Source: Candidatus Praeruminimicrobium purgamenti (GTDB lineage: Bacteria; Elusimicrobiota; Endomicrobiia; Endomicrobiales; Endomicrobiaceae). From it: DNA of 64,000 nucleotides. Shown piece after piece: positions 3,912 through 34,352 of this stretch (positions are counted from its first letter, which is position 1; the number at the start of each line of letters is the position of its first letter). Position numbers and translations under genes: made by a program. The notes beneath the pieces are model-generated. The model was given only the letters and a program-made list of their open reading frames with translations, was not told where the DNA came from and did no database searches. The stretch covers positions 1 to 64,000 of the forward strand of contig JAHDQW010000007.1 of assembly GCA_018433585.1 (NCBI GenBank). Reading direction: 5' to 3'.

Positions 3912-5618
3912 TTATCTGTATGATTTCAGTTTTTTTATAATGATGTCTCTTGATAAAATGCCGGCTATCTGTCCAGTTCTGTTTGTTACGGTAATGGTTT
4001 TTATTCCGTTCATGTGCAGAAGAAATAAAGCTTTGTATAAATCGTCTTCCTGCATTATAAAAAGAGGTTCCGGATTCATTACGGCTTCTATATCAGCATT
4101 AGTGCTGTTTCCCCGCAAAACATAATCTTCAAGCTCGTCTTTTGTAATTATCCCGGTAAGTTTATTTTTGTTGTCTGCAATTGGCAGAATATCATAAGCG
4201 CTGTTATTGAACATTTCAAGAGCTTCGTTTATTGTGTTTTTTAAATGAATTTTTTTTATGTTTTTATCCATAGCGTCAACGGCCTGTATTTTTGTTAAAA
4301 TGTTTTTTTCTTTTGAAGGAGTATCCTGTTTTAAAATCAATGAAGAGTATATCGGCGCATGATGAAGTTTTTCAGCGACCAAATCAGCTATTGCAACGCT
4401 GAACATTACCGGAAGAATATTATGGTAATCTCCTGTCATTTCAAAGACCATAACCACTGCGGTTATCGGTGTTCTTGCAACAGCGGCAAGAAATGCCCCC
4501 ATTCCTACTATTGAAATTGTAACCATATCTATATGCAGTCCGGAATAATTTGATATTATGCCAAGTCCGTATCCGAGAAAAGAACCGAGCATAAGCATCG
4601 GAAGGAAAATCCCTCCGGCAGCTCCCGATGAAAAGCAAAACGGAGTTATGAAAAATTTACCGGCAAAAATTAAAATAATCATCCAAATGCTGAATTTGTT
4701 CAGCAGCAGCTGGTCTATGGCAGTATTGCCGCCGCCTAAAATATAAGGAAGAAATAATCCCGTTATTCCTACGGCAAATCCCGCAACGGCCGGCTTAAAC
4801 CAGTTTGGGATTTTATGCATTTTATCGTAAAGCTTCAGATTGAAAAATATTGTTTTTGCAAACAAAACGCCAAGGACGCCCGCAATAATTCCGAGAGAAA
4901 TGAAAATAATAAAACTTTCGGGAGATACGTAAGTAACGGTACCTGATGATGGAATTAAAAATGACGGATTTTCTCCGAGAAAATGCCTTGAAACGCTTAC
5001 GGCGCTTACTGTTGCGACTAAAACGGAAAACAGAGTCGCCGCAGAAAATTTCTGCGTTAATTCTTCCAAAGCGAATATTGTGGCTGAAATAGGAGCGTTA
5101 AAAGTTGCTCCCAAAGCCGAAGCGGCTCCGCTGGCTATAAGATTATGCTGGCTTGTTCCCTTCATTTTAAACAGTTTTGCGACTAATGCTCCGACGCCGG
5201 CGCCCATCTGTACGCTCGGACCTTCTCTTCCCATTGACAGCCCGGCTCCTATGCCCGTGATGCCGGCCGTAAATTTAACTATAATGCTTCTCACTCTTAT
5301 TTTTTTGCCAAGTCTTGCAAGAGCAAGTTTTACGTATGGAATCCCGCTCCCTTTTGTTTCGGGGGCGATTTTAAATACAAGCAGTCCGGATATAAGACCT
5401 GCGCAGGTTGTTATGGCAGGAAAAAGAATAATTCTTTCCCAAATCGGAAATTGTGAGATAAACCCCTGCGTAAACGTAAAAATTTTGGTTATTGCCAAAT
5501 TGAACAAAACGACTATAACGGCTGCAATTATACCCACAAGTATTGCCTGAAGGATTATTTCGCTTCTTGATATATCCTGAAAAAATATTTTTGTTTTGTT
5601 TATAATGCCGGTTTTCAT
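3912..5618 (-). CDS. ClC-family chloride channel/antiporter with CBS domains
   Basis: A polytopic inner-membrane anion channel or Cl-/H+ exchanger. It has the ClC selectivity motifs GSGIP, GREGP (with the gating glutamate) and GGIFLP, within about ten membrane helices over residues 1-420. Two cytoplasmic CBS domains follow over the last 140 residues, which usually sense nucleotides. I chose the ATG at 5618 (568 aa). A TTG at 5684 in the same frame would add 22 residues with no ribosome site and no membrane-protein character. Convergent with pdxJ and divergent from the AsmA-like gene. The gating Glu leaves both channel and exchanger possible. Confidence 0.92.
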   Translation of the reverse strand: MKTGIINKTKIFFQDISRSEIILQAILVGIIAAVIVVLFNLAITKIFTFTQGFISQFPIWERIILFPAITTCAGLISGLLVFKIAPETKGSGIPYVKLALARLGKKIRVRSIIVKFTAGITGIGAGLSMGREGPSVQMGAGVGALVAKLFKMKGTSQHNLIASGAASALGATFNAPISATIFALEELTQKFSAATLFSVLVATVSAVSVSRHFLGENPSFLIPSSGTVTYVSPESFIIFISLGIIAGVLGVLFAKTIFFNLKLYDKMHKIPNWFKPAVAGFAVGITGLFLPYILGGGNTAIDQLLLNKFSIWMIILIFAGKFFITPFCFSSGAAGGIFLPMLMLGSFLGYGLGIISNYSGLHIDMVTISIVGMGAFLAAVARTPITAVVMVFEMTGDYHNILPVMFSVAIADLVAEKLHHAPIYSSLILKQDTPSKEKNILTKIQAVDAMDKNIKKIHLKNTINEALEMFNNSAYDILPIADNKNKLTGIITKDELEDYVLRGNSTNADIEAVMNPEPLFIMQEDDLYKALFLLHMNGIKTITVTNRTGQIAGILSRDIIIKKLKSYR

Positions 5619-33400: not shown

Positions 33401-33616
33401 ATAAGACCTATAGCAATGACAACGTTAACAACTATTGTCGGACTTATACCTCTTGCTATGGGACTTGGCGAGGGCGCAACGACAAACCAGCCTATGGCTA
33501 TAGCTGTGTGCGGCGGTTTGACTTTTGCATTGGCTCTTGCTTTGTTGTTTGTTCCTTTTGTATATCTCTATTCCAAAGGGATGAGAAATAAGAGCGAAGA
33601 TGAAATGATTCGGTAA
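30449..33616 (+). CDS. RND efflux transporter, second of a pair
   Basis: A 1055-residue partner pump, about as divergent from the first as different RND subfamilies. Helix 4 reads GMVVDNGNMVLENI and helix 10 GNVVNISIMLVDRYN, both the common single-Asp/Asn arrangement of HAE-type pumps. A Gln/Arg-rich insertion (TQDQQQQRYRKDRTY) lies in the first periplasmic domain, near residue 255. The gene ends the operon; a strong terminator follows 20 bases later. It probably supplies proton-driven activity to the pair, which is inference. Confidence 0.93.
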   Translation: MSLLRLPVDRPVTTIMIFLAVILMGIISWTRIPQELFPSMEYPQITIVTKYEGAGPEEAEKLISKIIEETAGTVKRIKRVSSVSKEGVSIVSCEFVWGTNMDFASMDIREKIDLIKESLPKDSLDPIVLKYNPMQVEAMILSANYKDTDDSSPEKMAALRTFVKKNIKDELERLEGVAKVAIRGGEQKEILVEIDKGRLLANQVSITDVITSLQTANITYPAGTIKEEKHEYIVKTVGEFQNLNDISSLSFGKQTQDQQQQRYRKDRTYQGETGDKIVYMRDVADVQESLKDRKGFSRYNSRENVSISIYPQSGANLINMSKLVKAKLKELDEKIPKDVEIEITYDQSIFIKQSLDNIYQSGIQGALLSLILLYFFMKSFVGSTIINTAIPISLCVTLSIMYFQGITINSMSLGGLTIGIGMVVDNGNMVLENILMAMHKHKHLPRKEAIYQATSSLLPPIVSSTLTTVAIFIPFVFVAGMIGQLFKQLALTITYSMLASIFAAMFLVPRLCLHANLSKISVTAGLKTIDTYFTPLLKSVLNFKVSKIFFFTAIYALVGVATVFLMPKEFMPKTDERKFVLSVSLHPDTPLEITNGVIKRIEKAISKYDEVKDISTSVGSTGEEIGSGSIETLGVYQARIITNLTPKGRSTNEIVTELSDEIKKWNIKDLEIEFATQQGLFGSGVGSSSGVTVELKGKDLQKLREYADRLKSNMESMPEFYGIKVDPSDEVPELRLTIDRERASLFGLSTQDIAAMTLAGIKGFVATKLKLPDDEMDIRVRMKPEDRDSLDKVMEMTAYSSWGMTIQLKQIAQASFVKSLPAIKRVEGERTYLVTANVKGNFTKAVGELQTLLDDVYNNADISAVVTGEMLAMKEALSQVSFAMILGIIIIFMILASEFESLFQPIIVMTAVPLGIVGALFTLFITGQSINSISMLGIIMLVGNVVNISIMLVDRYNLYYFQDPDKYRDIVAFKQMIVLTTVDHIRPIAMTTLTTIVGLIPLAMGLGEGATTNQPMAIAVCGGLTFALALALLFVPFVYLYSKGMRNKSEDEMIR

Positions 33617-33635
33617 GATAAATAACGGAATATAA

Positions 33636-33671
33636 TAAAAAAGCCTCTCTTAAATAAGAGAGGCTTTTTTT
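33636..33671. terminator. Bidirectional terminator between the RND operon and the 34-aa gene
   Basis: A near-perfect stem (AAAAGCCTCTCTT with AAGAGAGGCTTTT) around loop AAAT, with T tracts on both strands. It ends the RND operon and can also end the convergent small gene at 33685. Confidence 0.93.
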
Positions 33672-33684
33672 ATAATCATGATGT

Positions 33685-33789
33685 TTATTTTTTCTTTGCA
33701 GTTTTTTTAGCAGCAACTTTTTTGACAACTTTCTTTGCAGCTTTTTTTACAACTTTTTTCGCTGGCTTTGCTTTGCATCCACAAGGCAT
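33685..33789 (-). CDS. 34-residue Lys/Ala/Val-rich basic protein
   Basis: A very short gene with a clear ribosome site: AAGGAG seven bases before the ATG at 33789. The product begins MPCGCKAKP, then repeats KKVV/KKAA/KKVA blocks to a lysine tail and TAA. More than 40% of residues are lysine, as in histone H1-like tails of bacteria and in Hc1-type proteins, so nucleic-acid binding is a fair inference. The CGC near the N terminus could bind metal or form disulfides. It is flanked by its own leader and a terminator. Too short for common gene finders. Confidence 0.7.
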   Translation of the reverse strand: MPCGCKAKPAKKVVKKAAKKVVKKVAAKKTAKKK

Positions 33790-33792
33790 GTG

Positions 33793-33880
33793 TACGCTCC
33801 TTTTGTCTCAGTAAAGAGACATTTTTTTAAAGCAACTCCGGTTTGTCGGAGAAAAAGTTTTTCAAATATCACGCTAATAT
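33793..33880 (-). promoter_or_regulatory. Double-hairpin leader and promoter of the 34-aa gene
   Basis: On the minus strand the leader can form CTCCG-ACAAAC-CGGAG and then TGTCTC-TTTACT-GAGACA. The second hairpin ends directly before the AAGGAG ribosome site. A TATATT-like -10 lies further upstream, near 33876. The paired hairpins suggest transcript stabilisation or translational control. Confidence 0.5.
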
Positions 33881-33926
33881 AATAAATCAATTTTAAAAAA
33901 AATGCAAGTAATTTTTTAAATTACCG

Positions 33927-34352
33927 TCACAACTTTTTTGCCGCTGCCGCTTTCTTCTTCTTCTTTTTCTTTAAATAATTTACATAATCTGTGAAAGTCA
34001 TTATGGTTCTTTGTTTACCGCTGACCCATACAAACGCGCTGTAATTTTTTGACAGTTCTATTTTTTCAGGTTTTCCGGTCGCTTTATTGTCGGCCCACGC
34101 CGAGGCGATAATATTGTTTTTCGCTCCCTGTTTTTTTGACATAATAAGCAGTTCTTTTCTTAAAGTTTTTTTCACTTCGTCTAAAACCGGGATATCGCCT
34201 TTGTAAATTATGTATGCCGCCACGGGATATTGGCTGTCATATTGTTTTATCTGCACGGTGTAATTTTTTCTTTCTATTATTTCGTTTGCAAAAATATTTA
34301 ATGTAAAACAGAAAACAAATAAAAAACCTGCTAATAATTTTAAAGATTTCAT
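33927..34352 (-). CDS. Secreted protein with Lys-rich tail, 141 aa
   Basis: It has a signal peptide (residues 1-22, ending IFANE). The mature part is a small alpha/beta domain of about 100 residues with several Lys/Tyr-rich strands (NYTVQIKQYDSQYPVAAYII) and no motif I recognise. It ends in KKKKKKKAAAAKKL, an unusually basic tail. It lies four bases after aroK on the same strand, but an envelope role seems likelier than one in the shikimate pathway. Function unknown. Confidence 0.7.
   Translation of the reverse strand: MKSLKLLAGFLFVFCFTLNIFANEIIERKNYTVQIKQYDSQYPVAAYIIYKGDIPVLDEVKKTLRKELLIMSKKQGAKNNIIASAWADNKATGKPEKIELSKNYSAFVWVSGKQRTIMTFTDYVNYLKKKKKKKAAAAKKL

Follow-up and report, generated by a model that had tools for sequence, protein, structure and literature searches.

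Proteins with a Lys/Ala/Pro-rich, low-complexity basic tail, namely AlgP and PhaF (whose C-terminus carries KPAA repeats) and HctA and HctB of Chlamydia, are the described systems closest to the peptide reported here. DNA binding in vitro has been reported for KPAA peptides of the AlgP type, and the same report describes the AlgP tail as attached to a 124-aa N-terminal helical domain (PMC9239181); Hc2 is reported to vary in length (PMC2848022). Like Hc2, the peptide varies in length by repeat number (34 vs 56 aa in one genus); unlike AlgP, PhaF, HctA, and HctB, it is free, has no N-terminal domain, measures 22–67 aa, starts with CGC or CC, and follows a structured, conserved leader. The likeness is one of composition only, and homology is not claimed.

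For the leader, the ompA mRNA offers an example of stabilization by a 5′ hairpin. Both have a hairpin close to the 5′ end, and in both the ribosome site is surrounded by short single-stranded segments; in the peptide gene, unlike ompA, it is the position of the hairpin relative to the ribosome site that is kept across genera of one family, whereas the stem sequence is not.

A lysine-rich peptide gene in the window

The window, the whole 64,000-nucleotide stretch analysed (G000:C13:1-64000), belongs to a genome of 1.86 Mb and carries on its minus strand an ORF (33789..33685, stop TAA), complete at 34 codons, for the peptide MPCGCKAKPAKKVVKKAAKKVVKKVAAKKTAKKK. The initial annotation had read a tiny gene with a strong ribosome site, a clean stop, and its own bidirectional terminator, and each of these is in place: AAAGGAG lies 7 nt before ATG, the frame closes with TAA, and positions 33637-33670 form a stem of 15 pairs that can serve both strands because it is flanked by A6 and T6. 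The features of the locus are as follows.

33637..33670, no strand assigned: intrinsic terminator, stem of 15 bp with A-tract and T-tract flanks, located between convergent genes (sequence, terminator scan)
33685..33789, minus strand: gene for the 34-aa Lys/Ala/Val-rich peptide, N-terminal MPCGCK (ORF list, homologs, pS/pN)
33780..33792, minus strand: weak start-codon hairpin H3, CACA-UGCCU-UGUG (family vs control leader scores)
33797..33803, minus strand: ribosome binding site AAAGGAG, 7 nt 5′ of ATG (read from sequence)
33804..33821, minus strand: hairpin H2, 6 bp, UGUCUC-UUUACU-GAGACA, directly before the ribosome site (fold, covariation)
33822..33828, minus strand: A-tract of 7 A between the hairpins (A-rich in 40/43 leaders)
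33836..33851, minus strand: hairpin H1, 5 bp, CUCCG-ACAAAC-CGGAG (minimum-energy fold; helix 1 in covariation alignments)
33879..33907, minus strand: putative promoter TTGCAT-17-TATTAT, transcription start at ~33870 (comparison with relatives)

The promoter was placed by comparison with those of relatives (TTGCAA-17-TATAAT and others, with L063 and L185 left out); consensus promoter scans of the window did not pick the site. Downstream, a convergent gene ending at 33616 is read as an RND efflux permease (best E 2.9e-164 against RND subfamily models, whose curated cutoffs it does not reach). Upstream, on the same (minus) strand, a 141-aa protein of no assigned family is encoded at 33927-34352, with a shikimate kinase farther upstream; the 141-aa protein is exported-looking and has a C-terminal Lys/Ala run of its own, KKKKKKKAAAAKKL. 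A role as a transcription attenuator peptide was rejected because the next gene behind the terminator is the convergent permease and not a co-directional gene. A 43-base stretch common to the window locus and G000:C8 is A/T-rich and has no equivalent gene.

Lysine makes up 15 of the 34 residues, and acidic, aromatic, and Arg residues are all absent by composition count. This composition fits the earlier reading of the product as a free tail of the histone H1 type, although an N-terminal domain of the AlgP type is absent. A single-sequence AlphaFold2 model extends residues 1-9 and predicts a helix for residues 10-33 (mean pLDDT 83, pTM 0.40); such a predicted helix says little for a Lys/Ala-rich peptide.

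The description of the peptide as undescribed stands, since it has no Pfam or NCBIfam match at cutoff and a literature search (supplements outside its reach) found no description of it. One homolog weakly resembles two families of unknown function, DUF7196 (PF23826) over its first 32 residues (E 0.094, 13.4 bits, gathering cutoff 27) and phrog_2069 (E 0.019); the former comparison sets a 68-position profile against a 43-residue peptide and is below cutoff. The window peptide itself matches neither, and no DUF7196 match was found in its genome. A polyphosphate-granule role, as for AlgP, is unlikely because Ppk1 (PF02503, the only enzyme searched for) is missing from four of four genomes, the control being positive in seven of 14.

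The only other genome of the window's genus in the comparison set (G001) keeps the frame, ribosome site, leader, and terminator, so that the proposed check on close relatives did not refute the gene; the two copies differ by a 22-residue insertion of KKVV-like repeats (34 vs 56 aa). Fourteen codon-aligned pairs, not mutually independent, gave a pooled pS of 0.308 against a pN of 0.051, synonymous change being approximately six-fold above replacement. The pair L001/L005 has eight synonymous and two replacement changes; the direction is opposite in two of the 14 pairs (L036/L046 and L051/L071), and one pair has no change. The synonymous excess supports a translated product and, with conservation among relatives, rules out a chance ORF. 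At the level of sequence, these comparisons show a conserved, translated-type gene under purifying selection.

Distribution and setting in the Endomicrobiaceae

The Endomicrobiaceae (Elusimicrobiota) are a family of termite-gut and environmental bacteria. Homologs were gathered by DNA search of 60 relatives, profile search, patterns, a covariance model of the leader built on leaders of genus g8 (R2), and synteny, yielding 43 non-redundant genes, all from this family: 42 of its 76 genomes and one named record. Ten of 14 genera have the gene (g1, g2, g6, g7, g8, g9, g11, g12, g13, and g14), and the same searches found no copy in g3, g4, g5, and g10. Two copies in the genome tally are degenerate, L060 (G082) and L064 (G075): they lose the frame after a CGCK start and drop out of the family peptide scan filter, yet their genomes count as having the locus. 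Profile search alone found candidates in 21 of the 76 genomes and none in the window's own (G000); the figure is a large undercount, since it misses the window copy, which we ascribe to low-complexity filtering. Strict patterns miss the CC, Cys-less, and MACGCT forms.

The strict pattern AAGGAG plus CxCK matched in 27 of 340 genomes of the phylum and its reverse in none; the four matches elsewhere in the phylum, outside the family (L081-L084), are different proteins. Three of these (L081-L083, ~1514), from genomes of one other family, share a 106-aa MACKCK membrane-type protein with a strong leader hairpin shortly before AAAGGAG. Among 24 named-genome records with a pattern match, 22 are Endomicrobium, Endomicrobiaceae, or Endomicrobiia; one from Desulfocapsa is an unrelated 77-aa protein, and one from Omnitrophica UBA6249 (L063) has a similar 30-aa peptide without H2. 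The L063 peptide, MACGCKKTKKKVAKK (position 4540), has a ribosome site and a hairpin 3′ of its stop. Virus contigs (L056 2383-2415; L189-L193) contain small ORFs starting M[AP]CGCK, one of them only 10 aa long (MPCGCKKKKK) with a ribosome site.

The family consensus is M[AP]-C-(G)-C-K followed by a Lys/Ala/Val/Pro/Thr tail, with 22-67 residues in all. In a set of 43 peptides that includes L063 and L185 from outside the family, acidic residues are absent in 36, aromatic residues in 41, and Arg in 41. The CGC motif singled out in the initial annotation is usual but not essential: CC is found in G007, G009, G029, and G030, CCC in one G017 copy, and CGCGC in part of g8, while Cys-less starts (MAAKKK, MPTKKK, and MPAAKKK) occur in G006, G012, and G014 and in one tandem copy of G017. 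Two or three Cys within residues 1-7 in 39 of 43 peptides, and none later in 42 of 43 (both counts including L063 and L185), would suit a metal or redox peptide in which the CxC/CC end does the work (metal storage or sensing) and the tail parks the peptide on nucleic acid or membrane. We regard this as improbable, since the Cys-less copies of g6, g12, and g14 and of G017 keep both tail and position.

G017 has two consecutive copies, each with leader hairpin, ribosome site, and terminator; elsewhere a single copy is the rule. A small, cationic product with a structured leader and, in G017, a tandem copy might also be a cationic antimicrobial or type I toxin-like peptide, but we consider this highly improbable: the peptide is hydrophilic and Lys-rich and not of the hydrophobic membrane type, is usually single-copy, has no export signal and no visible partner, and is kept together with its neighbors across several genera.

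In g8, g11, g12, g13, and g14 these neighbors are an approximately 264-aa membrane protein in front of the gene and/or a convergent serS behind it (serS was identified by model for the L012 neighbor and by likeness for the others), and g2 and g6 copies follow the same membrane protein, which is conserved and without a family (G000:C13:75834-76610, L197, and homologs). The gene has a different location in g1 (the window's genus) and g7, with the same leader and terminator; in g1 and g10 a gene read as dnaX closely follows the membrane-protein gene in place of the peptide gene, which is what follows it in g2, g6, g8, g11, g13, and g14. Behind the terminator, most relatives are read as having a convergent gene (serS where identified) and g7 copies a co-directional one.

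Within the endosymbiont-rich genus g8, the locus is found in 18 of 20 genomes of at least 1.0 Mb vs six of 21 smaller ones (a false G070 match removed), a split for which sizes were rounded and which genome incompleteness confounds. Neither the patterns nor R2 gave a match in G023, presumably the endosymbiont Rs-D17, and the neighboring membrane-protein gene is broken there. Genome G011, which we take to be Endomicrobium proavitum, is a single contig of 1,588,979 bases; its copy starts MACGCTKKKATKK and has a leader with H1 UUCCGC/GCGGAA and H2 GCC-GAAA-GGC (R2 45.3 bits, E 2.5e-8). The gene is thus very likely present in E. proavitum, described in one source as the only isolate of the family (PMC11257099), and its presence there makes it accessible to experiment.

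A structured leader specific to the gene

Both leader hairpins proposed initially, one directly 5′ of the ribosome site, are present in the minimum-energy fold and conserved in relatives. From 5′ to 3′ the leader reads H1 (in many relatives UUCCGC..GCGGAA), an A-rich linker, H2, usually two to four A, AGGAG, 5-7 nt, and AUG. The window leader alone is only moderately unusual (z -2.2, with four of 200 shuffles folding as well; H2 alone, shuffle p 0.023), so comparison across relatives had to decide. Taken singly, eight of 34 H2 stems reach p 0.05 (300 shuffles per leader), as expected for such short stems. An H2 score of at least 7 was reached by 31 of 34 family leaders vs four of 25 control leaders (both 34-leader tests left out L028, L031, L056, L058, and L063), and in a wider set by 30 of 37 family leaders vs five of 48 from other genes. 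This second comparison left out L056, L058, L063, L028, and L081-L084, and its 48 controls hold one gene twice (two AGGAG registers) and some orthologs of one another. Across 43 leaders (L063 and L185 left out), 41 have an H2 stem score of at least 6, 40 an A-rich tract 5′ of H2, and 35 a pure-A linker between H2 and AGGAG.

The stem sequences drift: UGUCUC/GAGACA in g1, GUCUC/GAGAC in g7, UGCC/GGCA in g11 and g13, GGGA/UCCC and AGGAA/UUCCU in g8, AGCC/GGCU in g6, and AGCU/AGCU in g14. An alignment of 12 g8 leaders (A5; MAFFT, structure specified by hand) has 92.6% of cells paired and four of 16 pairs changed on both sides, against 28-53% of cells in slid controls. In the broader alignment A6 (33 matches from 39 sources), 92.3% of cells are paired and both sides have changed in 13 of 16 pairs, against 32-60% of cells and 4-7 pairs in slid controls; these figures are biased because the alignment was fitted to the leader model. 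Comparative evidence makes H2 firm as a predicted structure. Since the stem letters change freely, shape and position appear to be selected, and not a sequence-specific regulator site.

The plus strand of H2 reads TGTCTC-AGTAAA-GAGACA-TTTTTTT and scored as terminator-like. Combined with the A-rich tract before H2 in 40 of 43 leaders, this could mean that H2 and the A-tract form an opposite-strand terminator that blocks read-in from the convergent gene, the leader as such having no role. This reading has little probability in our view: a 15-bp terminator already stands between the convergent genes, the H2 stems are mostly of 4 bp (22 of 43) and weak for termination, and the reading leaves both H1 and the A-linker ahead of the ribosome site unexplained.

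R2 at E ≤0.01 gave 37 matches in 35 of the 76 genomes, 32 of which precede a peptide gene, indicating a leader that is tied to this gene and does not occur generally in these genomes. The other five (G015:C240, G032:C7, G019:C26, G095:C43, and G070:C3) are among the weakest; four are read as not preceding a peptide gene, and the fifth is without a family peptide in the scan. At E ≤0.05 the model misses six of 39 loci (L001, which is the window's, L006, L007, L031, L109, and L141); the window leader scores 14.6 bits (E 0.17) and is the top match of the window. Judged by these comparisons, no other architecture of the locus is as well conserved as the leader hairpins, and they are specific to the peptide gene. 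A search of Rfam 15 over the leader gave no match at gathering score and 47 sub-threshold matches, mostly over the terminator; the leader may be a new RNA element.

A third hairpin, H3, encloses the start codon. In most relatives it takes the form AGCC(A/G)..UGGCU, in which the spacer (AGCC, AGCU, or AGUC) pairs with UGGCU or GGCU of AUGGCU and the A of AUG lies in the loop; an H3 score of at least 5 was found in 32 of 37 family leaders vs four of 48 from other genes. It is the weakest of the three hairpins because coding dictates its 3′ arm, so that it is partly forced, and there is little variation in the pairing (in A6, three of five pairs lack change on both sides).

Several ribosomal proteins shut off their own translation autogenously, and the peptide could act likewise, any excess binding the hairpins of its own leader, or the one at the start codon, and closing translation. 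The leader is gene-specific and the product is very basic; three hairpins follow one another, two of them flank the ribosome site, and the third contains the start codon. On the other side, no loop or stem sequence is conserved for a specific contact (UGUCUC, UGCC, GGGA, AGCC, and AGGAA occur as stems, and loops differ), and the Cys-less first copy at L006 and L109 keep H2 with no H3 found. We hold autogenous control to be a real but minor possibility.

Proposed role of the peptide

The explanation we prefer, and to which we give even weight for and against, is that this is an autonomous gene of the Endomicrobiaceae encoding a free, H1-tail-like, nucleic-acid-binding peptide, with a leader that gives a stable, well translated mRNA. 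After removal of Met, the chain would begin Pro/Ala-Cys-Gly-Cys; DNA or RNA would be neutralized by a Lys-rich part that is disordered or helical when bound, and the CxC/CC end could link chains via a metal ion or disulfide, or hold metal. The peptide probably binds nucleic acid, as suggested by analogy: its composition resembles that of H1-type tails, DNA binding is reported for KPAA peptides, and a longer protein with the same kind of tail is found in the same genomes.

That longer protein (105-128 aa, MAEKV..GYLYFIDKDGD..) has the same kind of KKAVKKVAKK tail; it differs from the peptide in carrying a duplicated GYLYFIDKDGD unit ahead of that tail and in lacking both the CGC end and leader hairpins of this kind. 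With its two GYLYFIDKDGD-like units it occurs in many Endomicrobiaceae (L002 from 1237, minus strand, G000:C13, ~142 kb; L008-L011, L013, L014, L016, L021, L026, L027, and L030) and has no Pfam or NCBIfam family; phrog_9154 matches weakly (E 4.6e-4).

On the RNA side, the order of H1, A-tract, H2, A-linker, and ribosome site would leave the ribosome site unpaired, with a compact hairpin on either side, and the hairpins would protect the 5′ end of a short, stable, well translated, and presumably abundant mRNA. Protection and a clear landing site are favored over recognition of a specific ligand because the hairpin letters drift while the place before the ribosome site stays. The start-codon hairpin argues against simply maximal translation.

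A bolder version, which we consider doubtful, is that of a new class of gene, encoding a protamine-like, Cys-linkable micropeptide that condenses nucleic acid and senses its own free level through a structured leader of a new kind (H1, A-tract, H2, ribosome site, and start-codon hairpin); it would act as a self-contained buffer for compacting the nucleoid or RNA, one that decays in Endomicrobiaceae on their way to becoming endosymbionts.

In 42 of 76 genomes of a single bacterial family, the finding brings to light a gene of no known family, easily missed because it is small and of low complexity, and its leader is so structured and gene-specific that the role of that leader is directly testable. 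If the peptide condenses nucleic acid, it would be a natural H1 tail in minimal form, free of any domain, and the erosion of its gene in endosymbionts would tie genome reduction to the packing of the nucleoid.
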